64,000 nucleotides of DNA from Candidatus Zhuqueibacterota bacterium. GTDB taxonomy: Bacteria > Zhuqueibacterota > Zhuqueibacteria > Zhuqueibacterales > Zhuqueibacteraceae. Each line of letters starts with the position of its first letter. Position 1 is the first letter of the stretch. Location: positions 1 to 64,000 of the forward strand of contig JAKEEU010000128.1 in NCBI GenBank assembly GCA_022616415.1, read 5' to 3'. Positions 41,055-59,963 of the stretch are shown here, one piece after another. Position numbers and translations under genes: made by a program. The notes under the pieces were generated by a model that was given only the letters and a program-made list of their open reading frames with translations, searched no databases and was not told the DNA's origin.

Positions 41055-41162
41055 GGCTTGCCGCGATTGCCGCTTCGCACCCGGCCCATACTCGTGCTCT
41101 TGCTCGCTCGAGACGCTGGCGGCGAGCAAGAGTGCGAGAGAGCTCAAAATCGGAACCTTAAT

Positions 41163-42376: not shown

Positions 42377-42404
42377 TTGATTTTGCGCAAAAACCGCTTA
42401 TATT
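42377..42404 (+). promoter_or_regulatory. probable promoter of the 42.5-57 kb cluster
   Basis: TTGATT (42377-42382), a 16-base spacer and TATATT (42399-42404). The leader of about 155 nt contains a small hairpin (TCTGGA / TCCAGA, 42408-42428) and ends in GGAGAA before ATG 42567. Confidence 0.5.
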
Positions 42405-42566
42405 TTGTCTGGAGATCTCAAGTCCAGATTTCACCGGTTGGCGACACTAATTTGAGTGGGTGTTCGTTCAAAAAACAAAACGTGAAAATTTTATTTTAAT
42501 AAAACTTTTTGCATTTGCTCTCGTAACATGTTGACCAGCGACACAATATTTGACGGAGAACGAAAA

Positions 42567-44303
42567 ATGAAACGTGCACTTTTTTGCCATACAGTCTTGG
42601 CGCTCTTCGTGATGGCGATTGCAACCAATCAGGCCATCGCGCAACGAGTCAAATACCTCGGCACGCCGAAATCGCTGAGCACGGTTCTCAGCGGCTCGCC
42701 CAAATCGGTGAGCAGCGCCGGCGCCACGAAACTTCCAGTCATCACCTGGGGCGGGGACATCGCGACGATCTATGCGAATGGCGGCAGCACAACCTCAAAA
42801 GGCAGCAGCTTCGATAATGAAGGTCTCGAGATTGAAATTTTTCGCGAAGACAATTTCGTGACCCAAGCGCAAAAATGTCTGGACGGCGAAACGCCGTATC
42901 TGCGCGGCACAATGGGCATGATCAATATGGCTGCTTCGGCTTTCGCAGCGAAAGGCGTCAATCTCGTACCGTTTTATCAACTAACGTGGTCGACCGGCGG
43001 CGACGCCATGGTTGTGCGCGGCAACATCAAACGCGTGCGCGATCTGCGTGGAAAGAAAATTACCTTGCAAGCTTATGGCCCCCATCTCGAATACCTCGGC
43101 AAAGTGTTAGCCGACGACGGCCTCACGTTTCGTGATGTCACGCTCGTGTGGCTGCCAGATCTCACTCTCCCTCCCTACGACACGAAAGGAATGGCAACCG
43201 ATCCGGCGAGTGCTATGCGCGCCGATCCCACGATTGATGCGGCGCTCGCCATCATTCCCGATGCATTGGCGCTCACTTCCGGCGGCAACGTCGGCACCGG
43301 CGCCGAAATGTCGGTGAAAGGCGCGAAAATTCTGCTCACGACGAAAACCGCTTCGCGCATTATTGCCGATGTATACGCCGTGCGCTCGGATTATCTCGAG
43401 CGCAACCGCAGCGAGGTCGAAAAGCTCACGCACGGTTTGTTGCGCGCGCAGGAAGCCTTGCAACTTTTGCAGCAGCAAAAATCGTCGCGCCAAGCTGAAA
43501 ATCTGCAACTGCTCGGCAAAGCCGCGGATATTCTTCTCGGCAGTCCGCAAGCCACCGCCGATGCCGAAGCGTTGCTCGGGGATTGCGAGTTTGTCGGCTA
43601 TCCCGGCAACGTCGCATTCTTTACCGGCCAGGGCACGCTGCGAAATTTCGAGCGACTCACAAGTGAAATTCAAAGCTCGCTCTTGAGTCTCGGACTGCTT
43701 TCTGCCAAAGCGCCACTCAATCAGGCCAATTGGGATTATGCCAAACTCTCTGCCGGCCTGAAAAATACCGCGGGTGTCACGCTTGCCAAACCCGCCTTCG
43801 ATCCAAAGAAAGTTGAAAAGAAACTCGCTGTTGAAACTGAAACGTGGGCGGAAGAAGGCACGCTCTTTCTCTCTGAAATCAATTTCGAGCCGAACCAGAA
43901 CGATTTTCCTGAGAGCAAATATGCCGTCGATTTCCAAAAAGCTTTGGAGTTGGCGCAGACGTATGCCGGCGCGCTCTTCGTGGTGGAAGGCCATTCCGAT
44001 CCGCTCGGCGTTTTGAAAGCGCGGCAGCAAAACGAGTCGCCGGCGGTGATCAATCAAATGATCCAAAGCGCCAAAAATCTCTCCTACGAGCGCGCACAAG
44101 CGGTGGTGAAAAGCTTTTTGGCTTATGCCAAAAGACGCAGCATTGCGCTCGATGAGTCGCGCTTCGTTCCGGCGGGATTGGGCATTAATAGTCCCAAATA
44201 TAATCCACCGAAAACCAAAGAAGAATGGAACGCCAACCGCCGCGTCGTTTTTCGGCTTAAACAAGTGGAAGCGGAATTGACGGAGTTTACGCCATTGCAG
44301 TAA
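42567..44303 (+). CDS. periplasmic substrate-binding protein fused to an OmpA peptidoglycan-binding domain (1)
   Basis: A 578-aa exported protein with signal peptide ending AIAQ. Residues about 45-330 resemble a type-2 (NMT1/SsuA/NitT-like) solute-binding protein: KLPVITWGGDIATIYANGG, YQLTWSTGGDAMVVRG, RVRDLRGKKITLQAYGPHLE and DAALAIIPDALALTSGG. From about residue 430 an OmpA-type domain follows: LFLSEINFEPNQNDFPES, LFVVEGHSDPLGVL, LSYERAQAVVKSFL, VPAGLGINSP and a terminal NRRVVFRLKQVE. The OmpA domain would anchor the sensor to peptidoglycan. Start has GGAGAA six bases upstream. First gene of the PspA-centred cluster; a second such fusion is at 47239. Ligand unknown. Confidence 0.88.
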   Translation: MKRALFCHTVLALFVMAIATNQAIAQRVKYLGTPKSLSTVLSGSPKSVSSAGATKLPVITWGGDIATIYANGGSTTSKGSSFDNEGLEIEIFREDNFVTQAQKCLDGETPYLRGTMGMINMAASAFAAKGVNLVPFYQLTWSTGGDAMVVRGNIKRVRDLRGKKITLQAYGPHLEYLGKVLADDGLTFRDVTLVWLPDLTLPPYDTKGMATDPASAMRADPTIDAALAIIPDALALTSGGNVGTGAEMSVKGAKILLTTKTASRIIADVYAVRSDYLERNRSEVEKLTHGLLRAQEALQLLQQQKSSRQAENLQLLGKAADILLGSPQATADAEALLGDCEFVGYPGNVAFFTGQGTLRNFERLTSEIQSSLLSLGLLSAKAPLNQANWDYAKLSAGLKNTAGVTLAKPAFDPKKVEKKLAVETETWAEEGTLFLSEINFEPNQNDFPESKYAVDFQKALELAQTYAGALFVVEGHSDPLGVLKARQQNESPAVINQMIQSAKNLSYERAQAVVKSFLAYAKRRSIALDESRFVPAGLGINSPKYNPPKTKEEWNANRRVVFRLKQVEAELTEFTPLQ

Positions 44304-44318
44304 CAACTTCCCAACCAA

Positions 44319-44390
44319 TGTCATTCTGGAAGAATCTTGTTTGATACCAGCACAGGGCTTGACACAAAAAAGATCCTTTCAGGATGACAT
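44319..44390. repeat. dispersed ~75-bp imperfect palindrome, copy 3
   Basis: Starts TGTCATTCTGGAAGAATCTT and ends AAGATCCTTTCAGGATGACA. Same family as 363-438 and 7779-7850. It fills the spacer between the SBP-OmpA gene and the vWA lipoprotein gene. Confidence 0.75.
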
Positions 44391-44415
44391 GCTACTGGAA
44401 CTCATAAATGTCATC

Positions 44416-45210
44416 ATGAAAAAATTTTACTATTTTGTTGTTTGCTTGATTGTACTTTCACAGTGCATTGGCTGTCAAAAGCGAGAAAAGCAACAAACGA
44501 CCGCAACGAATCAACCAACCGTAGAGACCTCGCAACAGGCCGAGCCAACCTCGGACTTCGCAACTTCGGACATCGGACAAATTTCTTTAGCCCGCAACTT
44601 CTATTTCATCTTCGACGGCAGCGGCAGTATGCGCGATGCGTTGAGCAGCGATTGCGGCGGCGATCAAACATTTAAACGCAAGCTCGAGGGCGCCAAATGG
44701 GCGGTGGCGGAGTTTTTGAAAAAAGTGCCGGAAGATGTCAATCTCGGACTCTATGTTTTTGACGAGAACCATCGCAACCGCTCCGAGCGAGAAGTTGTGC
44801 CGTTGGGAACGAATAACATGGCCGCTTTCCTGCAAGCGATTAACGCCATCGAAGCCGGCGGCGGCACGCCATTGGCGGAAGCCATCCGCTTCGGCGCCGA
44901 AGTTTTGGCCCGGCAACGCGAGCAACAACTCGGCTACGGCGAGTTCCGGCTCATCGTCGTGACCGACGGCCTCGCCGATGACATCCCCCAAGCTGCCGAA
45001 TTTGCCACTGAGAATGCGATTCCGATTTACGCCATCGGCTTGTGCATTAAGGAAGATCACCCGCTGCGACAGTATGCCGTGTCGTATCGCGCTGCCGATA
45101 ATTTTGAAGATTTGGCCAAAGCCCTCGAAGCGACGGTGGTGGAGACGGAGTTTTATGATGCGAAGACGTTTGAGGCGCTTACTGGACATATGACAGAGTC
45201 GAAACAGTGA
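44416..45210 (+). CDS. vWA-domain lipoprotein
   Basis: A 264-aa lipoprotein: ATG 44416 gives MKKFYYFVVCLIVLSQCIGC with a plausible lipobox (IGC). After a Gln/Thr-rich linker the von Willebrand factor A domain runs from about residue 60 to 230. The MIDAS metal site is complete: FDGSGSM, the threonine in AGGGTPLAEAI, and VVTDGLADD. It probably binds a protein partner through a metal ion on the periplasmic face. The 3' end of this gene is duplicated at 46257-46409. Second gene of the PspA-centred cluster, and almost certainly its periplasmic interaction module. Confidence 0.9.
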   Translation: MKKFYYFVVCLIVLSQCIGCQKREKQQTTATNQPTVETSQQAEPTSDFATSDIGQISLARNFYFIFDGSGSMRDALSSDCGGDQTFKRKLEGAKWAVAEFLKKVPEDVNLGLYVFDENHRNRSEREVVPLGTNNMAAFLQAINAIEAGGGTPLAEAIRFGAEVLARQREQQLGYGEFRLIVVTDGLADDIPQAAEFATENAIPIYAIGLCIKEDHPLRQYAVSYRAADNFEDLAKALEATVVETEFYDAKTFEALTGHMTESKQ

Positions 45211-45227
45211 TTGAATCGGAGGGCATG

Positions 45228-45650
45228 ATGGGAATATTTGAATGGTTCGGAGAGAGTTATAATCCCGGTCCGGCAGGGTCGGTTGAATTTGGCAATCGCA
45301 AACGCCCCAAGCGTCCGCGTTATCAGGTGATGGCACGCTTTACGATTGCTCTTGTCTTGCTCGGGCCGGCGTGCTATTTGATATTTTCTAACGTCGATAA
45401 CGCAAACGCGAAAGCCATTGCTATTGTTTTGGGTATTGCTTATCTTGCTCTTGGCTATTTCGTGCATCCCGCGCCGGACACGAGCAATCTCGGTTGGTTT
45501 GGCGGTTTGATTGATCACCCTTTTCGATATTCAGATGACGTCAACCGTTTTTTGATCGTGCTCGAATTTTTTCTGCTTCCGGCTCGCTTCGTGGCCGAGT
45601 CGATTGTTGATTTCATCATTCTGGTGCGGAACAATGAGGTAAGAGATTAA
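45228..45650 (+). CDS. small polytopic membrane protein of the PspA-centred cluster
   Basis: A 140-aa protein from ATG 45228 (GGAGG five bases upstream). Two clear transmembrane helices (FTIALVLLGPACYLIF; AIAIVLGIAYLALGYFV) are followed by a third hydrophobic segment (FLIVLEFFLLPARFVAESIV). The soluble loop between helices 2 and 3 reads NLGWFGGLIDHPFRYSDDVN. I recognise no named domain. Its GTG-preceded frame overlaps the vWA stop, so translation is probably coupled. Confidence 0.7.
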   Translation: MGIFEWFGESYNPGPAGSVEFGNRKRPKRPRYQVMARFTIALVLLGPACYLIFSNVDNANAKAIAIVLGIAYLALGYFVHPAPDTSNLGWFGGLIDHPFRYSDDVNRFLIVLEFFLLPARFVAESIVDFIILVRNNEVRD

Positions 45651-45656
45651 GGACAA

Positions 45657-46256
45657 ATGGGAAGTGAAACATCAAATATGGACATCGAAGAAAAAGTTAA
45701 AAACTGGTTTATACCGCTTTCCCATGGCGACAAAACGTTGGGACAGGCGTACCAGGAACTTCAATCATTTGGCCTGAAGCAAAGTGAGATCCCTTACATT
45801 ATCCAACTTGTTGAGAACCCCAAATTCGATCTCCCCGGATTTGACCTCTTTCACGGCGCCGTCAATCTGCAAACGCATGACTATATTCATATCATTCTCG
45901 GGCGAGGTCTGTTGCCCAAAGACGAGGCCTTTGTGATCGGATTTACGATGGGCAGTACCGACCGCGTGACCACCAGCGAAGAACGTCTGTATGCCTTTTT
46001 TGCGAAATATCTATATCCAAGAGAATACCGCTTTACCGATGAAGATGTTCGTGTGTTTAAAGATGCCTTGCGACTCGGCTTTATTTCGGATTGTAAGCCC
46101 CTCTCTCAAATTGACTATTCCCCACACTTGCATCGGCCATTGCGTGAAATTCGTAAAGCCTTGGGCATAGAAGAAGATCTGCTGAGGGCTTATTACGCGA
46201 TAGAAAAGCGGCGATACCCCAATTCACCTGAAAGTCAGAGATTGCTTGAATCGTAG
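45657..46256 (+). CDS. Coq4-like metal-site protein
   Basis: A 199-aa helical protein. The central segment LQTHDYIHIILGRGLLPKDE contains HDxxH followed by eleven residues and Glu, exactly the metal-ligand spacing described for the ubiquinone-biosynthesis protein Coq4. The surrounding FDLFHGAVN and GFTMGSTDRVTTSEERLYAF are also helix-like and compatible with a Coq4-type fold. It begins seven bases after the membrane protein gene, with AAGGA upstream. No quinone-biosynthesis genes are near, so a role in lipid or quinone binding is a hypothesis only. The stop at 46254-46256 abuts the duplicated vWA fragment. Confidence 0.55.
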   Translation: MGSETSNMDIEEKVKNWFIPLSHGDKTLGQAYQELQSFGLKQSEIPYIIQLVENPKFDLPGFDLFHGAVNLQTHDYIHIILGRGLLPKDEAFVIGFTMGSTDRVTTSEERLYAFFAKYLYPREYRFTDEDVRVFKDALRLGFISDCKPLSQIDYSPHLHRPLREIRKALGIEEDLLRAYYAIEKRRYPNSPESQRLLES

Positions 46257-46409
46257 TATGCCATCGGCTTATGCATCAAAGAAGATTATCCGCTGCGGCA
46301 ATATGCCGTCTCCTATCGCGCCGCCGATAATTTTCAAGACTTGGCCAAAGCGCTGGAAGCGACGGTGGCGGAGACGGAGTTTTATGATGCGAGAACGTTT
46401 GAGGCATTA
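46257..46409 (+). pseudogene. duplicated 3' fragment of the vWA lipoprotein gene
   Basis: This stretch encodes YAIGLCIKEDYPLRQYAVSY and RAADNFQDLAKALEATVAET, nearly identical to the C-terminal part of the vWA protein (45028-45180). It begins immediately after, and in frame with, the stop codon of the Coq4-like gene and has no start of its own. A partial tandem duplication of the vWA gene, with the two genes 45228-46256 lying between the copies. A short membrane-helix-like reading (LLLSTIFLAYGAFAIIYYAR) follows in another frame at 46440-46500 and may be a second remnant. Confidence 0.8.
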
Positions 46410-46613
46410 TGTCTCATCAGCTCCACAGTTGTATCGGTTTGGTCTTCTCTTAAGCACAATATTTTTGGCTTACGGTGCTTTTGCAATAATCTATTATGCG
46501 CGAGAGCAGATCGCAAAGTATAAGTTTATTTGCATGAGCACCTGAATTGCTGTAAATTTGAGGAAGGCTGTTTTGCTGAATCGAGCTATGTGCAATTGTA
46601 TTTTATGGAGTGA

Positions 46614-47168
46614 ATGCCAATGACTCGCAAAAAGAAAGAACCGCAAAATCAAACGTCATCACGATATCCTATGGCAGCGGACAAAGTCCGTGAGAAGCCA
46701 CACAAGATTTCCGAGGTACAGGCTGAGTATGGCATCATCGTACAAACAGGTAAATCGGATAATCCCAAAATCTTGAAGACTTATTCAAGCCGTTTGGCAG
46801 AGCAAAAACGAAAGCTGGTGGCTAAATCCGCGAAGCTAAGCATCGCCTCACCCCGATATATTGCCGGCGTCGAAATGCCCGATACCGTTTGGCAATTTGC
46901 CAGAAAAAATGCGCTTTTCCCGCATTTGGAAACGGCACTACGCTTGGTGCATGAGTGTTTCCCAGAGGTCAAAAGCATCAAACTCGCTTATGAATTTGAT
47001 TGGGAAATTAAAAACGAAAGCTGGATCGCAATCAACATCCAAGTTCCCGGAGAAGTTGACAACGTCCTGAAGCAGTATTTATTCTTTAATCGTCAAATCC
47101 CGCAACAAATTCTACCTGATAAAAGCGATAAAATTCTGCTCGGCATCGGCGGGCTTGGCAACCCATGA
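46614..47168 (+). CDS. hypothetical protein of the PspA-centred cluster
   Basis: A 184-aa soluble protein with a basic, disordered N-terminus (MTRKKKEPQNQTSSR), then VQAEYGIIVQTGKSDNPKIL and a C-terminal alpha/beta region (WQFARKNALFPHLETALRLV; WIAINIQVPGEVDNVLKQYL). Start ATG 46614 follows GGAG; ATG 46620 is equally possible. No recognised domain. It sits between the vWA duplication and the second SBP-OmpA gene and could be an insertion, since its flanks look rearranged. Confidence 0.6.
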   Translation: MPMTRKKKEPQNQTSSRYPMAADKVREKPHKISEVQAEYGIIVQTGKSDNPKILKTYSSRLAEQKRKLVAKSAKLSIASPRYIAGVEMPDTVWQFARKNALFPHLETALRLVHECFPEVKSIKLAYEFDWEIKNESWIAINIQVPGEVDNVLKQYLFFNRQIPQQILPDKSDKILLGIGGLGNP

Positions 47169-47238
47169 GCGCATTGAAGCTAAATTAGAAAACCAGTTTT
47201 TTTAAAAGCAACAAGCGACCAGTAACAAGCAACCAGTC

Positions 47239-48807
47239 ATGCCCATCAAACGCTCAACCATCGGCGTCTTTCTGCTGCTCGTCTTAGGGGCTTTGGCCAT
47301 CGGGGTGTGGAAATTTCTCGCACCCCGTTTTTTTGCCAAAGGCCAAGTGGCCACCTCGGATGCGGCGAAGATTCAAGGCAAAATTGCGGGCGCCGGTGAC
47401 AATTATATTGGCTACGAATTCATCCGCTCCAGCGAGATGAAGCGCGCGCTCAGCCAACAAGGCTTCTTGTTGGATTGGCAGGAAGACAATGGTGATTATC
47501 GAAAACGTCTTACTGAATTCGCCCAGGGCAATTACGATTTCATCGTTCTGCCGATCAACTCGTATTTGACTCACGGCGCGGCGCACAAATTCCCCGGTGT
47601 TATCACCACAGTTATCAGCGAGTCCAAAGGCGCAGATGCGATTGTCGGCTACGCGGATCGGGTGACTGCCACGAATGGTCACGAGGTTAAAATCAATGCG
47701 CTGAACAACGCCAATCTTCGCATCGCGTTCACGCCGGATTCGCCCAGCTCGTTTCTCTTGAGCATTCCGGTGGTGCACTTCGGCCTCGACCAGCTTCGTT
47801 TTGCTGGCCCGTGGCGCGTTGAAGCGCAAGGCTCGAAAGATGCGCTGGAAAAACTCCAAAAAAAGCTCGTGGACGTGGCGATTCTCTGGGAGCCGGATGT
47901 GTCGCGCGCGCTCGAGATCAACGGCGTCAAGGTCATTTTCAGCTCGGAACAAGTGCGCGGCTTGATTATCGACGTCATCGTGTTCAGCCGCGAGGCGATT
48001 CGCAAGCGTCCGGAACTGGTGAAGATGTTTCATCGCGACTATTTCCGCGCCATCCAAATTTACACCAATGACCGGCCACGCATGACCAAAGAGTTTGCGA
48101 AATCTGCCGACCTCAGCGAAAAAGCCATTGAGAACATTCTCAACAAAATTGATTATGCCGATCTCGCGGAGAACGCGCTGCAATGGTTCAATCTCAGGAG
48201 CAGTGGCGTCGTCGGTGACGAACAGATTATCAACTCCATTCGCTCGATCACGGACATTATGATCCGCAATGGCGAGCTGAATACCGATCCGCTGGAAAAC
48301 AATCCTTTTCTCATCACCAACCGCGATTTCGTGGCGGAGCTGTATCAAAGCGGCGGCCTCGCCAGCTTGGGCGCGCCACCTACCGCGCCGAAAGATTTTG
48401 CCCCGCTTTCTGAGGGAGAATGGAAAGCGCTGCGCGAAATCGGCACGATGGCGATTCGCCCGATCACGTTTCAACAAAGTGCGGGCATCTTGGCTCTCGC
48501 CGGCAAGCTGGAGGTCGATGCCGCCGCACAGGCGCTCATCAATAACTATCCACAATATCGCGTTCTCATCAAAGGCCACACCTCGCGCGGCAACGTTGCC
48601 GAAGCCGATCTCAAGCTGTCACAGGATCGCGCCGAGGCGGTAAAAAAATATCTCGAGGTGGTGCATGGCATCGATCCCGACCGTCTGCGCGCCGTCGGGT
48701 TGGGTTCAGCGGAACCCCTCCCCCGCTTGCCTAATGAATCCGAACGCGCGTATCAGTATCGCCTGCCGAGAGTCGAGTTCGTGTTGGTCGAGGAAAATGC
48801 GATTTGA
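47239..48807 (+). CDS. membrane-anchored substrate-binding protein fused to an OmpA domain (2)
   Basis: A 522-aa protein with an N-terminal anchor (STIGVFLLLVLGALAIGVWK). The following about 320 residues have a type-2 solute-binding pattern: YEFIRSSEMKRALSQQGFLL, GNYDFIVLPINSYLTHG, RIAFTPDSPSSFLLSIPVVH, KLVDVAILWEPDVSRALEIN and LIIDVIVFSREAIRKRPELV. The C-terminal about 110 residues are OmpA-like: RPITFQQSAGILALAGKLEV, YRVLIKGHTSRGN, LSQDRAEAVKKYLEVVHGID and AVGLGSAEPL. Paralogous in architecture to the gene at 42567 but anchored in the inner membrane, so the pair could bridge inner membrane and cell wall. Ligand unknown. Confidence 0.88.
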   Translation: MPIKRSTIGVFLLLVLGALAIGVWKFLAPRFFAKGQVATSDAAKIQGKIAGAGDNYIGYEFIRSSEMKRALSQQGFLLDWQEDNGDYRKRLTEFAQGNYDFIVLPINSYLTHGAAHKFPGVITTVISESKGADAIVGYADRVTATNGHEVKINALNNANLRIAFTPDSPSSFLLSIPVVHFGLDQLRFAGPWRVEAQGSKDALEKLQKKLVDVAILWEPDVSRALEINGVKVIFSSEQVRGLIIDVIVFSREAIRKRPELVKMFHRDYFRAIQIYTNDRPRMTKEFAKSADLSEKAIENILNKIDYADLAENALQWFNLRSSGVVGDEQIINSIRSITDIMIRNGELNTDPLENNPFLITNRDFVAELYQSGGLASLGAPPTAPKDFAPLSEGEWKALREIGTMAIRPITFQQSAGILALAGKLEVDAAAQALINNYPQYRVLIKGHTSRGNVAEADLKLSQDRAEAVKKYLEVVHGIDPDRLRAVGLGSAEPLPRLPNESERAYQYRLPRVEFVLVEENAI

Positions 48808-48811
48808 AAAT

Positions 48812-48865
48812 TCGTGAAACGTGAAGCGTAAGGCGTAAAACGTAAAGCGTAAAACGTAATAAAGC
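48812..48865. repeat. CGTAAAACGTAA-type word repeats (spacer)
   Basis: Short tandem-like words CGTGAAACGTGAAGCGTAAG and GCGTAAAACGTAAAGCGTAA fill the gap before the next gene. The same words recur at 53036-53165, 55022-55047 and 55384-55470. Confidence 0.6.
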
Positions 48866-48870
48866 CGAAT

Positions 48871-49800
48871 TTGAGAAATTCAGCCGCCGTGAATTCTGAA
48901 AGTCCGACAAAGCCGCCGGCATTCGATTCGACGCCCGGTGCCATTGAAAAATACATTTTGAGCGAAACCCTGCAAAATCCGCTGACGACATTTTCTGCGG
49001 CGGTCGCGATTTTGTCCGGTCTGTACATGCTGGCCTTTGGCGCCAACAACGCCTCTCTCCTGCTCGCGCTCGGCGCCGGTGTTCTTAGTGTTGGGACGTT
49101 CATCTTCAACTATTTTATCCGCGGCGAGCGCTTGGCGCAGGATTATGTGCGTAAGCAGTTGGAGCAGCGGCGCGCCAATCGTGAAAACGAGATCGTCATC
49201 ATACACGACGAATTTCGCCGGTTGAATGATAAAGAAGGCGAGCAAGCGGCGCTGGAATTGCATCAAGCGTATCAAAAATTCAAAAGCTTTTTGCAAGCTC
49301 GCGAGGCACGAGGCACTGCGATGATGAAATCGATGCGCCTGCAAATTCTTGCCGAGGATACATATTTTCAAGGCGTCGAGGTGCTGCGTACTGCCGCGGG
49401 GATTACGCGCGCGCTGCAGGAGATCAATGTCGAGAAACTGCAACGTGAAGTGCAGGATTGGCAAAAGCTGCGGGATGCCGAATCCGTCGATCATCGTGAG
49501 TTGAGCGCGCTGGAGCGTCGTATCGAGTTGAATCAACAGCGGATCAATTCTTATCGTCAACGGCAAAGCGCATTGGCAGAATTATTTGCTGAAGCGGAGG
49601 CTTGCGAAGCGAGCCTTGAAGAAGCGTACATGCAATTTGCCGGCGCCGAATCCGCTGTGGCTTTGCCAAAATCCAATGTCGATAATGCCATCACGCGCCT
49701 GGAAACGGCGGTGGCGGCGGCGCGGCGAGTTGAAACCAGGATCAAAAATATGAGTGCGGCAGATGAGATTTATCTGGCCGCTAGCGAGAAGGCCAATTAG
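48871..49800 (+). CDS. membrane-anchored coiled-coil protein of the PspA-centred cluster
   Basis: A 309-aa protein. Two adjacent transmembrane helices lie at about residues 40-85 (TTFSAAVAILSGLYMLAFGA; LLLALGAGVLSVGTFIFNYF). A cytoplasmic alpha-helical coiled coil follows to the end (YVRKQLEQRRANRENEIVII; LQREVQDWQKLRDAESVDHR; LERRIELNQQRINSYRQRQS). The start codon is uncertain: TTG 48871 or GTG 48889, with no clear ribosome-binding site. Likely a membrane receptor for the PspA-like protein, by analogy with PspB/PspC or other partners; this is inference. Confidence 0.75.
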   Translation: MRNSAAVNSESPTKPPAFDSTPGAIEKYILSETLQNPLTTFSAAVAILSGLYMLAFGANNASLLLALGAGVLSVGTFIFNYFIRGERLAQDYVRKQLEQRRANRENEIVIIHDEFRRLNDKEGEQAALELHQAYQKFKSFLQAREARGTAMMKSMRLQILAEDTYFQGVEVLRTAAGITRALQEINVEKLQREVQDWQKLRDAESVDHRELSALERRIELNQQRINSYRQRQSALAELFAEAEACEASLEEAYMQFAGAESAVALPKSNVDNAITRLETAVAAARRVETRIKNMSAADEIYLAASEKAN

Positions 49801-49825
49801 ATCCCAATATGTCAATAGGTGCTTT

Positions 49826-50977
49826 ATGACTGAACTTAAAAATCTCATTGCGGCCGGCGAAAGCTCGCATCTCGAATTTAAATCCGAGCAAGTCAAGCCC
49901 GAGGATTTAGCTAAAGAAATAGTTTCTTTTCTCAATTTTCAAGGCGGCAAAATTCTGCTCGGCGTTGAGGATGACGGCACGATTTCCGGTGTCTCCCGTC
50001 CGGATGTGGAAGAGTGGGTAATCAACATCTGCCGCAACAATGTTGTGCCACAGATCATACCCGGCTATCAGGAGTTTACTGTAGAAGGCAAAGCCGTCGT
50101 TGTGCTCGGCATTCCTGCCGGAATAGCCAAACCGTATCATACACAAAAAGGCGATTACTACATTCGCGCCGGCAGCACCGCGCGCAAAGCTTCACGTGAG
50201 GAGCTTTCGCGCCTGTTTCAAGATTCCGGCTTGATTCATTATGAAACGACGCCGATTTCAGGAACCACGTTAGCCGAGTTGAATTGGCAACGGCTCCATG
50301 ATTATTTCCTCAATCTGCATCCAGCGCACCTCAATCTCAATGATGAAGATGAAAACGCGCGCAACAAAATGCTGCAGAATCTCGACATTTTGGCACAAGC
50401 TGACGGTTCGACGACTGTTGTGGGCATGTTGATGTTTGGCCTGCAACCGGAGCGTCATTTGCCGCAAAGTGAAGTTTTGTTTGCCCATTTCAAAGGAAAA
50501 GAAATTAGTGACGAGTTGCTGGATCGCAAAAGTCTCACCGGTCCGCTGCCGCAAATTATCGAGGATGCGCAGCGAGTGTTGAATTTAAATTTGCAAACCG
50601 CTTCCCAGATTGAAGGCATGAAGCGAATCGATCACGTCATTTTTCCAGACAAAGTTTTGCGCGAGCTGATTATCAACGCGTTGCTACACCGTCGTTGGGG
50701 CCTCATGGGAAATGTGAGAATCTTCTTGTTTGAGGATCGCTTACAGATCAGCAGTCCCGGTCGCTTGCCTAATGGTGTGACGATTGAAAAAATGAAAGAG
50801 TCAACCCACGTTCCGCGCAACCCTATTCTGATGAAATTTTTGCAGGATTATCACTTCGTCGAAAAGCTCGGACGTGGCATTCCGATGGTCGTTCGTGAAA
50901 TGAAAAAGCTCGGCGTTCGCGAACCGGATTTTCACGAAAGCGGTGAGGAATTTATGGTGACGCTTTATCGAGAATGA
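49826..50977 (+). CDS. AlbA_2/Schlafen-like putative transcriptional regulator with HATPase_c_4 domain
   Basis: A 383-aa protein from ATG 49826 (AGGTGC upstream). The N-terminal Schlafen/AlbA_2 domain reads ESSHLEFKSEQVKPEDLAKE, IVSFLNFQGGKILLGVEDDG and GDYYIRAGSTARKASREELS. The C-terminal part is a GHKL-type HATPase_c_4 domain (VLRELIINALLHRRWGLMGN, ISSPGRLPNGVTIEKMKEST) ending in GRGIPMVVREMKKLGVREPD. The family is often annotated as RecG-like helicase or DNA-binding regulator. Sitting inside the PspA-centred cluster, it may regulate it, or it may be a passenger. Confidence 0.88.
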   Translation: MTELKNLIAAGESSHLEFKSEQVKPEDLAKEIVSFLNFQGGKILLGVEDDGTISGVSRPDVEEWVINICRNNVVPQIIPGYQEFTVEGKAVVVLGIPAGIAKPYHTQKGDYYIRAGSTARKASREELSRLFQDSGLIHYETTPISGTTLAELNWQRLHDYFLNLHPAHLNLNDEDENARNKMLQNLDILAQADGSTTVVGMLMFGLQPERHLPQSEVLFAHFKGKEISDELLDRKSLTGPLPQIIEDAQRVLNLNLQTASQIEGMKRIDHVIFPDKVLRELIINALLHRRWGLMGNVRIFLFEDRLQISSPGRLPNGVTIEKMKESTHVPRNPILMKFLQDYHFVEKLGRGIPMVVREMKKLGVREPDFHESGEEFMVTLYRE

Positions 50978-51028
50978 TTGAAACATTTCCATATTTTTTA
51001 CAAGCAAACAAAAAAGGAGAAATAAAAG

Positions 51029-51868
51029 ATGGAAGAACAACCTGGCATCCTGCAAGCGTTGTGGCGCTTCATCACGTTCTATCGTGTCCGCAAAGCGCTC
51101 GGCCTCGTGCGCGCAGCCAACAAACAGTTCACCGGCTCGACCTCCGGCATCCGCGACGCCTTCGATATCGAAATGAATCAGAAGGTGCAGGAATATAAAC
51201 AACTCGAATCCGCGGTGGCCGAAGTTGAAAACGTCATCGAAAGCAAGCGTCTCGAATTGGAGCGCTTGAATAACGAGGAAAAAGAACTGCTGAAAAAACG
51301 CGAAGGCGCGCTGGCCCTGGCGGAAAAGTCGCAGGTCGAGGGCAACAACGACGCCTTTGCGCAGCATCAAGCCGCGTTCACGCGCTTTCAAAGCCGCATC
51401 AACGAGGCTGAGGAACGGCAGAAATCGTTGGCCGAGCAAACCAAGCAATATGAAGACAGCATGAAAAAATACATGCTGCAGCTCACGAAGATGCAGGCGT
51501 ACGTCCAATCGCTGCCCGCGAAAAAAGCCGAGGCGATTGCGGATTTTGTTTCGGCGAAAAGAATTATCGAATTGAATCACAGGCTGATGGGCATCAAGAC
51601 TTCGTTTGAAGAGGGGCCGGTGTCGCTGGTGCTCGAAGAAAATCGCCGGCTCACGGCGCAAGCGCGCGTTACTGAAAAGATGGCCGGCACCAGTGTCGAG
51701 CTGCAAGACACGATGTATGCCGACGCCGGCCGCTCTTCCGAAAGCGGCGATGTTTTCACCAAGATGCTCGCCGCGCGCAAGGCGCAGAAGGAAACGCAAG
51801 CGGCGCCGGCGGAAAAAGAGGCTGCCAAGCAAACGGCCGGCTCCGGCAATGATCGTCCGAAAATCTAA
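51029..51868 (+). CDS. PspA/IM30-like coiled-coil protein
   Basis: A 279-aa largely helical protein resembling PspA/IM30/Vipp1 (ESCRT-III-related) membrane-remodelling proteins. It starts with an amphipathic segment (ILQALWRFITFYRVRKALGL), contains the long hairpin coiled coil (EYKQLESAVAEVENVIESKR; RFQSRINEAEERQKSLAEQT) and ends in an unstructured Ala/Glu-rich tail. PspA proteins bind stressed inner membranes and form rods or rings. An AAGGAG site precedes the ATG. It is flanked by coiled-coil and ABC-transporter genes, which makes membrane stress or membrane organisation the likely theme. Family assignment rests on pattern and architecture. Confidence 0.75.
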   Translation: MEEQPGILQALWRFITFYRVRKALGLVRAANKQFTGSTSGIRDAFDIEMNQKVQEYKQLESAVAEVENVIESKRLELERLNNEEKELLKKREGALALAEKSQVEGNNDAFAQHQAAFTRFQSRINEAEERQKSLAEQTKQYEDSMKKYMLQLTKMQAYVQSLPAKKAEAIADFVSAKRIIELNHRLMGIKTSFEEGPVSLVLEENRRLTAQARVTEKMAGTSVELQDTMYADAGRSSESGDVFTKMLAARKAQKETQAAPAEKEAAKQTAGSGNDRPKI

Positions 51869-51932
51869 ATGGAGTGTTGGATTTTTGGATTAATGGAGTT
51901 TTGGATTCTTGGATTACTGAAACGGAGAAATT
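51869..51932. repeat. TGGATT-type word repeats (spacer)
   Basis: Words such as GGAGTGTTGGATTTTTGGAT and TAATGGAGTTTTGGATTCTT fill the gap after the PspA-like gene. The same vocabulary appears as an inverted repeat at 54022-54135. Confidence 0.5.
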
Positions 51933-51935
51933 CAA

Positions 51936-53036
51936 ATGAACCGCAATAAGATTTTTGTCACACTTTTTGCTGTCTGTCTTCTCATCTTCTTAGTTTTGAC
52001 TTTTGTCGTTACGCCAAATTCGACGACTTTTGCTCAAAACAAAAAGCCCAAGTTCACGCTGATGTGGTCGATCTACGTCGGCTGGATGCCGTGGCCGTAT
52101 GCGGCGGAATCCGGCATCATCAAAAAATGGGCGGACAAATACGGCATCGAGATCGAGGTGCGACAGGCTGATTATATTCCCTCCATCGAAGCTTATGTCG
52201 CCGGCAAGGCGGAGGCTTGTGTGATGACGAACATGGAATGTCTCGATATGCCGGCGGCTTCGGGAATTGACAATACGGTCGTCGTGGCCGGCGATTTTTC
52301 GAATGGCAACGACGTGCTTTATACGCGCGACGATCTGCAAGTTCCGCAACTGCGCGGCAAGCAGGTTGCATTGGTGGAGTTGTCGGTGTCGCATTATCTG
52401 CTCGTGCGCGCGCTCGAGTTGAAAGGTAACGGCCTGACCGAGAAAGACGTCAAAATTCTCAACACCAGCGACGCAGACATCGCGCCGGTTTTTGTTTCCA
52501 ACCCTTCGCAGAAAGCCGTGGTGACGTGGAATCCGATGGCTTTGGAAATCGAGCAAACGCCCGGCGTGAAGCGCGTGTTCGACTCGGCGGCGATTCCCGG
52601 CGAGATTCTCGATTTGCTGGTGGTAAAAACCGACGTGCTGAAAAAAAATCCCCAGCTCGGCAAAGCGCTGGCGGGCGCCTGGTACGAGATCATGGGCATC
52701 ATGTCCACGCGCAGCCCGGAAGCGGAAAAGGCCATCGCGCGCATGGCGGAATTGTCGGGCGCCACTCCGGCATCCTTCAAGCAGCAGCTTAAAACCACGG
52801 CGATGTATTATCGCGCTCAAGACGCTGTCGCATTCACGCAATCGCCCGAACTGTTCCGCAACATGGATTTCGTCCGCAAATTCTGCTTCGAACACAAGCT
52901 GCTCGGCGAAAACGCCAAATCAGTTGATGAGGTCGGTATCCAATTTCCCGATGGAAGAATTTTGGGCGATTCCAAAAACGTGAAGATGCGGTTCTCGACG
53001 GAGCACATGCAAATGGCGGCGGCGGGGAAGCTGTAA
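51936..53036 (+). CDS. ABC transporter substrate-binding protein, urea-carboxylase-region/NitT-TauT type
   Basis: A 366-aa periplasmic protein with N-terminal signal/anchor (IFVTLFAVCLLIFLVLTFVV). The mature start TLMWSIYVGWMPWPYAAESG and the stretch KAEACVMTNMECLDMPAASG closely resemble the substrate-binding proteins encoded next to urea carboxylase genes. Family conservation continues in VVVAGDFSNGNDVLYTRDDL and QVALVELSVSHYLLVRALEL. It is followed by a matching permease and ATPase, so a full importer is present. No urea carboxylase or allophanate hydrolase gene is in the window, so the substrate may differ. Confidence 0.88.
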   Translation: MNRNKIFVTLFAVCLLIFLVLTFVVTPNSTTFAQNKKPKFTLMWSIYVGWMPWPYAAESGIIKKWADKYGIEIEVRQADYIPSIEAYVAGKAEACVMTNMECLDMPAASGIDNTVVVAGDFSNGNDVLYTRDDLQVPQLRGKQVALVELSVSHYLLVRALELKGNGLTEKDVKILNTSDADIAPVFVSNPSQKAVVTWNPMALEIEQTPGVKRVFDSAAIPGEILDLLVVKTDVLKKNPQLGKALAGAWYEIMGIMSTRSPEAEKAIARMAELSGATPASFKQQLKTTAMYYRAQDAVAFTQSPELFRNMDFVRKFCFEHKLLGENAKSVDEVGIQFPDGRILGDSKNVKMRFSTEHMQMAAAGKL

Positions 53037-53165
53037 AACGTAACTCGTAAAACGTAACTCGTAAAACGTAATTCGTAAGACGTAATTCGTAAGACGTAAC
53101 TCGTGAAACGTGTAACGGTCTCACGATGAAAGAGCGTTACACGTTTCACGTTACACGATCAAACC
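53036..53165. repeat. CGTAAAACGTAACT-type tandem word repeats and a GTTACACGTTTCACG palindrome
   Basis: Four or five ~15-base units (AACTCGTAAAACGTA, AATTCGTAAGACGTA) are followed by GCGTTACACGTTTCACGTTA, which pairs with GTGAAACGTGTAACG at 53103-53117. The array occupies the whole spacer before the permease gene. Confidence 0.7.
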
Positions 53166-53196
53166 GAAAGACCAAAACGACGAGGAGATTCTCGCA

Positions 53197-54015
53197 TTGC
53201 GATTGCGCGACATTTTCGGCCTTTATGCCAACCTTCCGCGCTGGCTAAAGACTTTTCTGGCCATTCTGCCTTTTGCATTCATCATTTTCGGCTACATTGT
53301 TATTGCCGATCAACGTCACGAAGAAAACCCGAACGACAAAGTGACGCCGAGCATTCAACAACTCGTTGACGGCTTTTATCGCGCGACAATGGAGCCGGAT
53401 CGTGATGGCAAGATTCGGCTTTGGGTGGATACCGCTGCCAGCTTGCGGCGATTGGCGATTGGGGTTTTGCTCGCGGCAATGGTGGGAATATTATGCGGAC
53501 TTCATCTCGGCGTGATGCCGTTCTTTGAAGCAACCTTTTTGCGGTTTGTAACTTTTTTTGACAAAATACCGGCGCTCGCCTTGTTGCCGATTTTGTTCAT
53601 CACGTTGGGATTGGAAGAGATCGCCAAAATCGCTTTGATTTTCATCGGCATCGTGCCGACGATTACGCTCGACACCTACTTACGCGCCAAAGAAATTCCG
53701 CAAGAGCAATTGGTCAAAGCCTTCACGCTCGGCACTTCGGATTTTGAAGTCACATACAAAGTGGTATTGCCGCAAATTTTTCCCAAAGCGTTGGACTCGG
53801 TTCGGCTCAATCTCAAAGGCGCATGGCTCTTCCTCATTGCCGCCGAATCCATCGCCGCCACCGAGGGACTCGGCTATCGCATCTTCGTCGTGCGGCGCTA
53901 TCTGGCGATGGATATCATCATTCCGTATGTGATTTGGATCGCGTTGCTGGCGTTTTTGATGGATTTTATTTTGCGGCTGTGGGTGAAAAAGGGATTTCGA
54001 TGGCTGCAGGCGTAA
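53197..54015 (+). CDS. ABC transporter permease, NitT/TauT type
   Basis: A 272-aa inner-membrane permease with six predicted helices. Typical sequences are LWVDTAASLRRLAIGVLLAA, LALLPILFITLGLEEIAKIA, and the EAA-loop region EQLVKAFTLGTSDFEVTYKV followed by VVLPQIFPKALDSVRLNLKG. The final segment (ATEGLGYRIFVVRRYLAMDI) is characteristic of the urea-carboxylase-region transporter subgroup. The start is TTG 53197 with GAGGAG ten bases upstream. Forms the importer with its neighbours. Confidence 0.93.
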   Translation: MRLRDIFGLYANLPRWLKTFLAILPFAFIIFGYIVIADQRHEENPNDKVTPSIQQLVDGFYRATMEPDRDGKIRLWVDTAASLRRLAIGVLLAAMVGILCGLHLGVMPFFEATFLRFVTFFDKIPALALLPILFITLGLEEIAKIALIFIGIVPTITLDTYLRAKEIPQEQLVKAFTLGTSDFEVTYKVVLPQIFPKALDSVRLNLKGAWLFLIAAESIAATEGLGYRIFVVRRYLAMDIIIPYVIWIALLAFLMDFILRLWVKKGFRWLQA

Positions 54016-54021
54016 ACGCGG

Positions 54022-54135
54022 AGTGATGGAATAATGGATTGTTGGATCGATGGATTATTGGAGCAATGGAAGTTCCATCACTCCAGCGATCCAACAATCC
54101 ATTACTCCAACACTCCAATACTCCATTATTCCAGG
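54022..54135. repeat. inverted TGGATTATTGGAG-type word repeats
   Basis: The left half (GAGTGATGGAATAATGGATT and following) and the right half (GATCCAACAATCCATTACTC and following) are imperfect reverse complements, centred near 54070. The structure fills the spacer between the permease and ATPase genes and could fold into a long hairpin. Confidence 0.7.
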
Positions 54136-54140
54136 TTTAT

Positions 54141-55028
54141 ATGAGCGACATCTTTGTAGTCAAACTCGAGGACGTGTACCAGCGCTATCATCGCGATGGC
54201 AAACTGGCGACCATTCTCAATGATATCGATTTAAAAGTGCGGCCCAACGAGTTTGTCACCGTCGTCGGCCCGAGCGGCTGCGGCAAATCCACGCTCTTGC
54301 GGTTGATCGTCGGCTGGGAGCGCGCCAAATCCGGCACGGTGCGAATTGACGACGTCGCAGCCGGCTCGCCCAATCGCGATCGCGGCATCGTCTTTCAGAA
54401 GTATTCGCTCTTTCCTCACCTCACCGTTTTGGAAAATGTCATTTTGGGCCTGGAACTGGAGCAGATTCGCTTTCTAGAGAAATATCTTTGGTACCCCGGC
54501 TATTTTCGTCGCCGCAAAGTCTGGGTCAAGGAAGCCATGACTTTCCTCGAGCGCATGCGCCTGAGCGAGCATGCCAACAAATATCCCCACGAGCTTTCCG
54601 GCGGCATGCAGCAGCGCGTGGCGATTGCGCAAGCTCTCATCATGAAGCCGAAGATCATTCTTATGGACGAGCCGTTCGGCGCGCTGGACCCCGGCACGCG
54701 CGAGGACATGCAAGTGTTTCTCCTCGAATTGTGGGAACAGTACGAGATGACGATTTTCTTTGTGACGCATGATCTTGAAGAAGCGCTCTTTCTCGGCACG
54801 AGAATCATCGTGCTGTCGCCATATTACACGATTGACAGCGGCGAAGCGGAGGGCGCCAAAATCGTAATGGATCGAAAACTGCCTGGCCCGGCAGCAACGC
54901 GAGTCAAATATTCGCCGGAGTTCAACCAGCTTCTCGAAGAAGTCAAATTGCGCGGCTTTGTGAAGGACTATAAACAGCACATCAGCGAATTTGATTTGTC
55001 GCACCCGGACTCGTGGAAAACCGTGTAA
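54141..55028 (+). CDS. ABC transporter ATP-binding protein, NitT/TauT type
   Basis: A 295-aa ATPase from ATG 54141. Walker A GPSGCGKST (residues 43-51), Q-loop region IVFQKYSLFPH, signature LSGGM (152-156), Walker B IILMDEP (172-178) and the switch histidine in FFVTHDLEEAL are all present. An unusual insertion of about 20 residues after the Q-loop (IRFLEKYLWYPGYFRRRKVW) and a C-terminal extension of about 60 residues occur in the same subgroup as the permease. A 34-codon upstream extension of the frame lies in the inverted repeat and is rejected as coding. Confidence 0.94.
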   Translation: MSDIFVVKLEDVYQRYHRDGKLATILNDIDLKVRPNEFVTVVGPSGCGKSTLLRLIVGWERAKSGTVRIDDVAAGSPNRDRGIVFQKYSLFPHLTVLENVILGLELEQIRFLEKYLWYPGYFRRRKVWVKEAMTFLERMRLSEHANKYPHELSGGMQQRVAIAQALIMKPKIILMDEPFGALDPGTREDMQVFLLELWEQYEMTIFFVTHDLEEALFLGTRIIVLSPYYTIDSGEAEGAKIVMDRKLPGPAATRVKYSPEFNQLLEEVKLRGFVKDYKQHISEFDLSHPDSWKTV

Positions 55029-55047
55029 CGTGATACGTGTAACGCTC
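55022..55047. repeat. ACGTGTAACG-type word repeat (spacer)
   Basis: GTAACGTGATACGTGTAACG overlaps the stop of the ATPase gene and shares its words with 53036-53165 and 55384-55470. Confidence 0.45.
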
Positions 55048-55091
55048 TATATTTGAAAAAATCTCTTTAACTTAGGGAAATGGAGGAAGCT

Positions 55092-55307
55092 ATGGCAACG
55101 GCAAAATTTCGTTTCGATTTCGAAAATCTCGAATCTTCTCAAAAGGCTTTTCGATGGAATCGTGACGTGTTCCGTCGCAGCTTAAAATTTAGGCGTTTGC
55201 TTCAGTCGTCGGTTGGCGATCAATTGCGGCGTGCGGCGTTGTCGATTCTAACCAATATCGCCGAGGGCAGCGGATACGATTCGAAGGCGCAAAAGAAGCG
55301 TTATTAA
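55092..55307 (+). pseudogene. truncated four-helix-bundle (23S rRNA IVS-type) protein
   Basis: A 71-aa frame from ATG 55092 (GGAGGA upstream). FDFENLESSQKAFRWNRDVF and GDQLRRAALSILTNIAEGSG are hallmark segments of the four-helix-bundle family also found in 23S rRNA intervening sequences, where members are normally about 120 aa. The frame stops right after SKAQKKRY, so helices 3 and 4 are missing, and no continuation is found in other frames. A passenger fragment, not an obvious part of the system. Confidence 0.75.
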
Positions 55308-55383
55308 AGGCGTTGATAAGCCAAAAGCTAAAAATGCGAAAAACGGTAATGGCAAACAAACCAAAGAAGACCATCAGAAATAA

Positions 55384-55470
55384 GATCGTTACACGTTTCA
55401 CGAACTAACAAATCACCGAACTAGCAAAGCTGTCAACTCATAGACCGTTACACGTTTCACGGTACACGAG
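55384..55470. repeat. two GTTACACGTTTCACG units (spacer)
   Basis: GATCGTTACACGTTTCACGA near 55383-55402 and CCGTTACACGTTTCACGGTA near 55445-55464 flank a short AT-rich stretch directly upstream of the AAA+ gene. Same words as 53036-53165. Confidence 0.6.
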
Positions 55471-55471
55471 A

Positions 55472-57238
55472 ATGAAAGAAGAAATAGTGCAATTACGTCC
55501 AAGCTTCCTCAACGACCTCAACCGCCTCTACCGCCAGCGCAAGAAAAACGTCATCCTGATGACGGGCAACATTCACGATTCGTTTTGGGACACGACAACG
55601 AACGAGTTCGCGCCGATGGATCAGGTGCTTTACAGTGCGCTACGCGAGCATTTCACGATTGTTTTTGTCGACATGGCTGGCATCTCGTTTTTAAGCGCGG
55701 AAGACGAATTGGATTTTGCGCGCGTGTGGAAATCAGCGGAGCATCTCTTGCCTGCCGAAGGTTTTCGTGAGCAGGAGCTTGAGGAATTTCGCAATGCCGT
55801 CGCCAACAACACATTTCAATCTCTCGCGGCGCTGGTGATGTTGAAGCATCTCACCGAGCGCATGGTGCGTTTTCGGAAAAAGCACGCCGAATTGAAGCCG
55901 TTGGCGATCATCGTGCGGCTGGCGGGAACGTTGTTTCCCGAGGGCGAGATCAATCGGTTGCCGGAGCTGGATAAGAATCGCCTAGCGTTTTTTTATGCCT
56001 GGCTGACGCAACCCGAATTCCGTGAGGAAAAAGATTTCTTCATTCTGCTCAATCGCACCAACTCCGAAGTGAACAGCTTGCTGCGCGCGCTGCCGCACAC
56101 CGCCAGCATTTCGATTCCACTGCCTGACGAGGAACAGCGGCGGCAATTCGTTGAGCACTTTTTGAAAAATCCCAAATTTGGTGAGGCGCTACAACTCGAA
56201 GGCGGCAAGGAGAGATTTATTGCAGACAGCGCCGGACTCACACTGGAGGTGCTCAAAGATCTTTTTGAAGATGCCGTCAGCGAGAAAAAGCCAGTCACCC
56301 GCGCCATGCTGCTGGCCGAGATCAACAACTTGCTGCGCGAGCATCTGGGCGACATCATCGAAGTGGAAATTCCCACTTTCGGCCCCGAGGCGGTGATTGG
56401 CAACGAGGAGCACAAGCAAATTCTTGACGACGTGTTCGAGCGCTGCGAACATCGTGATACTGCCGTGTCTGCTATTCTCATTTCCGGACCGAACGGCGGG
56501 GGCAAAACTTTTTTGCTGCAAGCCTATGCCGGCAAATCCGGCCGCGTGGTGATTCGCATCAAAAATCTGCGCAGCATGTATTACGGCCAGACTTCGGTGA
56601 TGTTCGAGCTGTTCCGCTGGTATGTGCTGACGTTTGGCAAGATTCTCATTCTCGTTGATGAAGCGCACACGGCGTTTGGCTCGGTCCACTCCCCCACCAC
56701 TCACGAGGCGGAGAAACAACTCGCCGGCAACATCATCCAAATGATGGGCGACGAGCGCAATCTCGTGAAAGTGTTGTGGGGTTTGATGACCTCGCGGCCC
56801 GACGAGCTTGACCCCGATGTTAAAAGCCGCAGCCCGATTCAAATCGCCGTTTTCGATCCCGAAGGCGAGAAGAGAGTCGCGTTCATCCGCGAATTATTCA
56901 AACGCAAAGGCGTGCCGTTGGATGAACTCTCCCCTGCTGATTGGGATACCCTCATCAGCAAAACCACCAACTTCTCCGCCCGCGACTTTCGCAATCTCAC
57001 TGCCGAAATGCTGCACGCTCGTCGCAAGCATCCCCAGATCAGCGTCCTGCAAGTTCTCGACTACTGGCGCGCCGGCATGGCCATCGTCCGCGAGCGTGAG
57101 TTTCAGATGCATGTGGCGGCGATGCATTGCTCGTATCCGGCTTTGTTGCCGGAACGGTTTCGGAAGATGGGCACGGAGGAGCTTATCACGGCTACTGATG
57201 ATTTGAAATTGTTGATGCAGTTGAAACGAGGCGGATGA
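55472..57238 (+). CDS. tandem AAA+ ATPase of the PspA-centred cluster
   Basis: A 588-aa cytoplasmic protein. Residues 1-290 look like a degenerate AAA+ module: KKNVILMTGNIHDSFWD lacks a GKT, but KDFFILLNRTNSEVNSLL and ISIPLPDEEQRRQFVEHFL match sensor-1 and lid regions. Residues 300-560 are an active module: Walker A GPNGGGKT (339-346), Walker B ILILVDEAH (391-399), and a pore-loop-like RSMYYGQTSVMF. A lid-type stretch IAVFDPEGEKRVAFIRELF follows. Likely a protein-remodelling motor acting on the PspA-like polymer or another partner, by analogy with PspF/Vps4-type relations. Last gene of the cluster. Confidence 0.85.
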   Translation: MKEEIVQLRPSFLNDLNRLYRQRKKNVILMTGNIHDSFWDTTTNEFAPMDQVLYSALREHFTIVFVDMAGISFLSAEDELDFARVWKSAEHLLPAEGFREQELEEFRNAVANNTFQSLAALVMLKHLTERMVRFRKKHAELKPLAIIVRLAGTLFPEGEINRLPELDKNRLAFFYAWLTQPEFREEKDFFILLNRTNSEVNSLLRALPHTASISIPLPDEEQRRQFVEHFLKNPKFGEALQLEGGKERFIADSAGLTLEVLKDLFEDAVSEKKPVTRAMLLAEINNLLREHLGDIIEVEIPTFGPEAVIGNEEHKQILDDVFERCEHRDTAVSAILISGPNGGGKTFLLQAYAGKSGRVVIRIKNLRSMYYGQTSVMFELFRWYVLTFGKILILVDEAHTAFGSVHSPTTHEAEKQLAGNIIQMMGDERNLVKVLWGLMTSRPDELDPDVKSRSPIQIAVFDPEGEKRVAFIRELFKRKGVPLDELSPADWDTLISKTTNFSARDFRNLTAEMLHARRKHPQISVLQVLDYWRAGMAIVREREFQMHVAAMHCSYPALLPERFRKMGTEELITATDDLKLLMQLKRGG

Positions 57239-59687: not shown

Positions 59688-59889
59688 AGATGAACCTCCT
59701 AAATTAACCGACGCAAGAAAATTATGAACGTGCTATATGAATTGGGATTGCTGTGACCACCGAGAATTGACACGCAAGTATTATTTCAAAATGGCAACCA
59801 AACTGGCAATCAGCGCCACCGGTGTGGAAACGCCTGAGCTAAGAGTCGCAGCGGCTTTTTGCTGCGTTCCTCTTAAGCGATTTGTTTGG

Positions 59890-59918
59890 CATATTTTTAT
59901 TTTATTTGCCCATGTCAA
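59890..59918 (-). promoter_or_regulatory. sigma-70-like promoter upstream of the amidase
   Basis: Minus-strand TTGACA (59918-59913), a 17-base spacer and AATATG (59895-59890). A hairpin CGCAGC/GCTGCG lies 10-50 bases downstream in the leader, which is about 200 nt long. Confidence 0.45.
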
Positions 59919-59963
59919 GGGCTGACACCATATATTCGTCATATTCTTCTCACATATGTTCTT

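Follow-up and report, generated by a model that had tools for sequence, protein, structure and literature searches.

The closest described systems to the locus analysed here are NitT/TauT importers (SsuA/TauA, TIGR03427), peptidoglycan anchors of the OmpA/MotB/Pal type, the Psp system (PspA/IM30) together with ESCRT-III/Vps4, and the XpaC–TelA/YaaN pair of Bacillus subtilis and Listeria (lmo1966-lmo1967). The locus lies at positions 42377 to 57238 of a 64,000-nucleotide stretch of a Candidatus Zhuqueibacterota genome (contig JAKEEU010000128.1; hereafter the window). Nine of its genes form a single conserved operon, inherited together and in fixed order: SBP-OmpA1, vWA, SBP-OmpA2, CC48, a cytoplasmic coil, a TIGR03427 solute-binding protein (SBP), a permease, an ATPase and an AAA+ protein.

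Each described system resembles part of this operon. Like NitT/TauT importers, it encodes an SBP, a single permease and an ATPase, with the third SBP above the family cut-off, but it adds two OmpA-fused SBP paralogues, the vWA protein, the coil and the AAA+ protein, and it has no carboxylase. SBP-OmpA1 shares with OmpA/MotB/Pal anchors an OmpA-like domain with its D/R pair, although here the OmpA domains are fused to solute-binding domains of ATP-binding cassette (ABC) type and SBP-OmpA2 mostly lacks the Asp. A predicted helical-hairpin coil with remote PspA similarity at profile level, beside a CDC48/Vps4-like AAA+ protein, recalls the Psp and ESCRT-III/Vps4 systems; however, this coil has no Pfam PspA_IM30 match, the AAA+ protein is of the classic type and not PspF, and the partners are ABC, OmpA and vWA proteins. 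In many relatives of the locus TelA stands beside a small membrane-anchored coil protein, as in the XpaC–TelA pair, but CC48 has no XpaC (PF10112) match and TelA is embedded in an eight-gene transporter operon.

An earlier note on this DNA, made from the letters alone, knew of no described system with this composition, and none was found in the open literature; NCBI annotation names only individual parts. Subscription papers on Ter/TelA gene neighbourhoods, which lay outside the search, may mention parts of it. The novelty of the system is therefore provisional. It is uncommon for an envelope operon of eight to nine genes to span about 14 phyla and yet lack a described function, and this one joins three questions: the role of TelA, how PspA-like coils learn the state of the envelope, and why giant phages carry entire transporters.

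Conservation in bacteria and phages

A scan with SBP-OmpA1 found 80 loci in about 14 phyla. Many are metagenome-assembled genomes, for which an individual taxon label may be erroneous; isolates are also represented (Sulfidibacter corallicola, Acanthopleuribacter pedis, Vibrio fluminensis, V. xiamenensis and Pleionea sediminis). Loci were mapped with iterated hidden Markov models, and each gene was counted over the loci whose contigs had room for it. On this basis the vWA gene was present in 81/81 loci, SBP-OmpA2 in 67/68, CC48 in 63/65 and the coil in 56/62, followed by the third SBP (47/54), the permease (45/51) and the ATPase (42/48). The first distant match was to Vibrio plasmids, which carry an ATPase, SBP-OmpA1, vWA, SBP-OmpA2, the coil protein, TelA, a urea-type SBP and a permease. 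From SBP-OmpA1 to the permease these follow the window's order and are homologous gene by gene except for TelA; SBP-OmpA1 is 40% identical to its plasmid orthologue over its full length. As the same order recurs across phyla, the cluster is not a product of chance, and the earlier note's treatment of the SBP-OmpA, vWA, coil and AAA+ genes as one system is borne out by their co-occurrence.

The AAA+ gene was also tried as bait for the operon, and was abandoned: it gave no match in the genome contigs, and its plasmid matches lay in unrelated contexts. At blastn sensitivity no E. coli carried the operon. Scans of promoters and terminators gave no excess over shuffled sequence.

The minimal form consists of an SBP-OmpA protein, a permease and an ATPase. 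This trio stands alone in relatives from the same class (L062, L064-L069, L071), where most of the SBP-OmpA proteins have the canonical GHTD...N..LS..RA motif and no coil was detected beside the trio within the fetched stretch. The full form has three paralogous SBPs, a vWA protein with a complete metal-ion-dependent adhesion site (MIDAS), a coil protein with two transmembrane (TM) segments, and a PspA-like or TelA cytoplasmic coil. Since the trio can stand alone, the full operon seems to have been elaborated from a transporter tethered to the wall.

The operon is also carried by huge phages. All eight genes occur in order, with a coil of the window's type (the 51029 family), in the 595-kb phage LR756511 (L190:13926-22488), and all eight occur with TelA in a 545-kb IMG/VR contig, where an HNH endonuclease gene separates the third SBP from the permease (L194:10001-20383). 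Both contigs contain terminase genes. A 107-kb fragment holds the first four genes up to the contig end, with phage DnaB and DNA polymerase as neighbours (L193:9998-15386). In the SBP-OmpA1 tree the operon phages occupy two places, a deep phage pair and one position inside Thermodesulfobacteriota, which implies at least two acquisitions.

Reduced forms are found in other phages. The arrangement permease-ATPase-gp246-gp247-SBP-OmpA, in which two coil genes (gp246 and gp247) precede SBP-OmpA, occurs in Bacillus phage G and in 24 other viral contigs (25 fetched, phage G included; L191:10058-17143; L200-L224); five of the six such contigs tested contained a terminase, and no full-length match to this type was found on plasmids. 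An SBP-OmpA homologue was present in 15/15 Lak Prevotella megaphage records, and in the two examined, Lak-B4 and Lak-A1, permease and ATPase genes adjoin it (L225:8842-13679; L226:8836-12730; TAG read as Gln).

In the vWA protein the MIDAS motif DxSxS...T...D (D92, S94, S96, T176 and D209, in alignment numbering from an upstream start) was kept at each position in at least 85/86 loci. The lipobox, visible by eye in the window, matched the strict pattern in only 25/86 loci. Both residues of the peptidoglycan site, D491 and R522, were kept by SBP-OmpA1 in 85/86 loci. SBP-OmpA2 always has the Arg but mostly a Gly in place of the Asp; an N-terminal hydrophobic anchor segment was found in 74/78 loci, in agreement with the proposal of two SBP-OmpA fusions, one exported (42528) and one anchored (47239). 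Separate, highly conserved motifs in each of the three SBPs suggest that each still binds something.

Two side observations concern the loci themselves. Acanthopleuribacter pedis has two copies of the operon (L091, L094) with identical SBP-OmpA1. A conserved, cysteine-containing protein of about 340 residues, without a Pfam match, directly adjoins the operon in nine loci (L103:10480-11520, L110:8910-9932, L159:13617-14621 and six others) from Thermodesulfobacteriota, Spirochaetota and Parcubacteria.

The coil slot and the AAA+ protein

The position between CC48 and the third SBP is occupied by TelA or by the 51029 family, never by both. TelA is the occupant in most lineages, and 25/25 slot members scanned in other loci matched PF05816. 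The SBP-OmpA1 tree shows at least two changes of occupant, and this repeated exchange argues that TelA and the 51029 coil are probably interchangeable in function, which provides a testable functional hypothesis for TelA. The possibility that 51029 is itself a TelA homologue was rejected (no Pfam match; hhalign 0.4-0.5%).

The earlier note called 51029 a PspA/IM30-like protein. It is not a member of the Pfam family: PspA_IM30 (PF04012) matched neither 51029, nor any of 11 family members (0/11), nor anything in the whole 10.3-Mb genome. A remote likeness was found by profile-profile comparison. The family profile scored 7% against PspA in hhalign when the divergent phage member was left out and 90% when it was included (E=1.6e-6, 204 collinear columns), and the phage G gp247 family scored 95.6% (E=1.2e-8); these E-values refer to single comparisons. 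The equally helical controls TelA and CC48 reached at most 2%, so the 51029 signal is not merely that of a coiled coil. The predicted 51029 model is a long helical hairpin (38-104/107-161) of modest confidence (predicted local distance difference test, pLDDT, 72), for which Foldseek placed Vipp1/PspA at rank 3-4 with a non-significant E=0.076; the TelA model (pLDDT 63) had no significant Foldseek match. The 51029 coil is thus a probable remote relative of PspA/ESCRT-III, outside the curated family. No recurrent family of the PspF, PspB or PspC kind was noticed among the operon's neighbours, although no test was aimed at these.

CC48 is widely retained and usually has two hydrophobic segments, as expected for the two-helix coiled-coil protein predicted at 48871. 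Its identity with XpaC was considered and rejected, as there was no PF10112 or other Pfam match and no XpaC family above cut-off in relatives.

Among bacterial loci of the 51029 type with room for an AAA+ gene, 10/10 had one directly 3' of the ATPase, compared to 0/13 TelA-type loci. The pairing of a PspA-like coil with an AAA+ protein therefore holds in the 51029-type lineage but is not universal. Residues K345, D396, E397 and R453 of the AAA+ protein were kept in 29/29 sequences. By inspection its first module is degenerate and lacks Walker motifs; comparison with hhalign did not identify this module as AAA. TelA-type loci often have other AAA+ proteins nearby, in several architectures; divergently transcribed AAA+ genes lie upstream of the TelA-type operons in L114, L119, L131, L134, L135 and L142 (single AAA; ankyrin plus tandem AAA with lid_6).

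A proposed wall-tethered transporter and its alternatives

What could such an operon do? The parts list is well supported, and the function, like the sensor mechanism proposed in the earlier note, is one we infer from it. We tentatively propose, with a probability of about 0.42, that the products form a widespread and so far undescribed machine spanning the envelope, that within it an ABC transporter held to the peptidoglycan is coupled to, and controls, a membrane-remodelling coil (PspA-like or TelA) that protects the inner membrane, and that huge phages of several host groups acquired this machine repeatedly, so as to guard the host's envelope or provision it during infection. The SBP-OmpA proteins would hold the transporter to peptidoglycan, dock with it and present ligands to it, and the vWA protein may provide a metal-dependent bridge to the binding proteins or to the outer layer. 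Ligand occupancy, or the distance between wall and membrane, could then alter the ABC cycle, and CC48 would relay this change to the coil, which would stabilise the inner membrane by assembling on it. In the lineage with the PspA-like coil, the AAA+ protein might recycle polymers of this coil in the way that Vps4 recycles ESCRT-III. In phages the operon may preserve the envelope of a cell under long infection, or keep the cell fed.

This proposal would account for the fixed order and co-occurrence, the exchange in the coil slot, the remote PspA homology with its controls, the AAA+ pairing, the conserved OmpA D/R and MIDAS residues, the stand-alone trio and the retention in phages. Several observations weigh against it. 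The vWA lipobox is not conserved, and replacement of the Asp makes wall binding by SBP-OmpA2 uncertain. The putative PspA link is seen at profile level only, given the negative Pfam search, the drop to 7% and the Foldseek result. The AAA+ protein is missing in many lineages and in phages. The trio without a detected coil shows that the transporter part can act alone, and the third SBP keeps nearly all the residues of its urea-carboxylase-linked cousins, as would fit plain import.

The main rival is import alone, of a small nitrogen compound such as urea or guanidine, and we consider it rather unlikely. The operon would then encode a high-affinity importer in which wall-tethered SBPs trap the ligand, the coil and vWA proteins assist assembly, and phages carry it as auxiliary metabolism. 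Third SBPs passed TIGR03427 in 24/24 cases scanned. Close homologues of this SBP occur with urea carboxylase in Rhizobiales and Azospirillum, where they form one separate branch; operon and carboxylase-linked SBPs have 45/53 near-invariant columns in common (two of them gap columns), which suggests that the two groups may transport related ligands. A trio able to stand alone also suits an importer. However, no metabolic enzyme recurred beside the operon in the neighbour survey of the loci; urea carboxylase or allophanate hydrolase was neither noticed among the window's open reading frames (ORFs) nor recurrent in the loci, and no riboswitch, for guanidine or otherwise, was found. Import would not require a MIDAS protein, a PspA/TelA coil or three SBPs whose conserved pockets differ, and the phage G-type and Lak forms have no urea-type SBP.

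A role in resistance to toxic anions or to antimicrobials that act on the envelope, in which TelA or the PspA-like coil that replaces it would be the effector, seems improbable. It draws on the PF05816 match throughout the TelA slot members scanned and on Listeria, where telA adjoins xpaC and a telA mutant shows a 4-fold rise in susceptibility to nisin and a 2-fold rise for tellurite (PMC12791056). Such a reported role in tolerance fits the envelope protection that we propose. In the window lineage, however, an unrelated-looking coil replaces TelA, and TerD/TerC-type genes were not among the recurrent neighbours.

We give still less credence to a role in conflict between bacteria and phages, as superinfection exclusion in phages and possibly as anti-phage defence in hosts. 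The envelope location would suit exclusion, and the operon entered huge phages at least twice and is carried by Vibrio plasmids too. Against this, PADLOC gave only weak MotB-like OmpA and generic AAA matches (best E=7.7e-5, generic AAA+), no defence-island neighbours stood out, and the operon has been conserved on chromosomes over the long term. That an ABC importer and unrelated genes lie together here by chance, for which one could cite the urea-carboxylase-linked transporter homologues elsewhere and four non-core genes in the window (45225, 45657, 46614 and 49826), is refuted by the gene-presence counts, by an order fixed in about 80 loci and intact in phages, and by the outcome of a test named in the earlier note, in which the transporter would occur mainly with urea carboxylase and the other genes would be scattered: the carboxylase-linked SBPs are a single branch, no metabolic enzyme recurs and the other genes are unscattered.

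Cultured hosts of the operon exist, in Sulfidibacter, Acanthopleuribacter, Pleionea, Vibrio fluminensis and V. xiamenensis, and Bacillus phage G is a cultured phage with the reduced form.

Gene inventory and neighbouring genes

The ORFs and domains claimed in the earlier note are all present on the plus strand (Table 1). Its gene list omitted the AlbA gene (49826-50977), a weakly Coq4-like gene (45657) and an orphan (46614), and it mentioned neither TelA as the other occupant of the coil slot, nor the trio that stands alone in relatives, nor the huge phages. The three-helix protein gene at 45225 exists but, like 46614 and the AlbA gene, is non-core.

Table 1. Features of the 42377–57238 cluster, in window coordinates.
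Feature	Coordinates	Strand	Description	Evidence or remark
SBP-OmpA1	42528..44303	+	exported NitT/TauT-type solute-binding domain, C-terminal OmpA-like domain	NMT1 E=1.6e-8, OmpA weak
vWA protein	44413..45210	+	lipobox-like N-terminus, complete MIDAS	VWA_2 E=3.8e-12
Three-TM protein	45225..45650	+	inserted, non-core	no counterpart in G002 or any other locus
Coq4-like protein	45657..46256	+	accessory	weak Coq4 match; not in G002
Second, degenerate copy of vWA 3' end	46257..46405	+	149 bp, 88%	insertion marker
Orphan protein	46614..47168	+	genus-specific	found in window and G002 only
SBP-OmpA2	47239..48807	+	membrane-anchored solute-binding domain and OmpA domain	OmpA E=5.5e-14
CC48	48871..49800	+	two-TM protein with cytoplasmic coil	family without Pfam entry
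Schlafen/AlbA_2 + HATPase_c_4 gene	49826..50977	+	passenger	broken in G002, not in other loci
51029 coil	51029..51868	+	cytoplasmic, all-helical, probable remote PspA relative	sits in TelA slot
Third SBP	51936..53036	+	TIGR03427 'putative urea ABC transporter SBP'	481 bits vs cut-off 333.9
Permease	53197..54015	+	NitT/TauT-type	BPD_transp_1 E=1.8e-17
ABC ATPase	54039..55028	+		ABC_tran E=1e-33
AAA+ protein	55472..57238	+	active CDC48/Vps4-like module (335-520) after module without Walker motifs	PF00004 E=3.4e-12

The sister species G002 keeps the cluster order at 65-95% identity, without the three-TM and Coq4-like genes and with a broken AlbA gene. In the window the three-TM and Coq4-like genes are flanked by a duplication of the vWA 3' end (45028-45176 and 46257-46405; 149 bp, 88% identical), and the second copy beyond them identifies the cassette as an insertion. 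Coq4-like homologues adjoin the operon in four unrelated loci (L108, L128, L131 and L152), and the gene is therefore an occasional accessory. G002 also has a second copy of the SBP-OmpA2 N-terminus upstream (C9:26-28.3 kb) which, with the broken AlbA gene, indicates that the stretch is rearranging within the genus.

Just upstream of the cluster, window positions 39126-42194 encode a CHRD-repeat protein and another secreted protein, both with type IX-like C-terminal sorting signals. Downstream, among the minus-strand genes at 59106-61924, helical proteins are encoded between an N-acetylmuramoyl-L-alanine amidase gene (59106) and the gene for a DUF2589 protein (61337).

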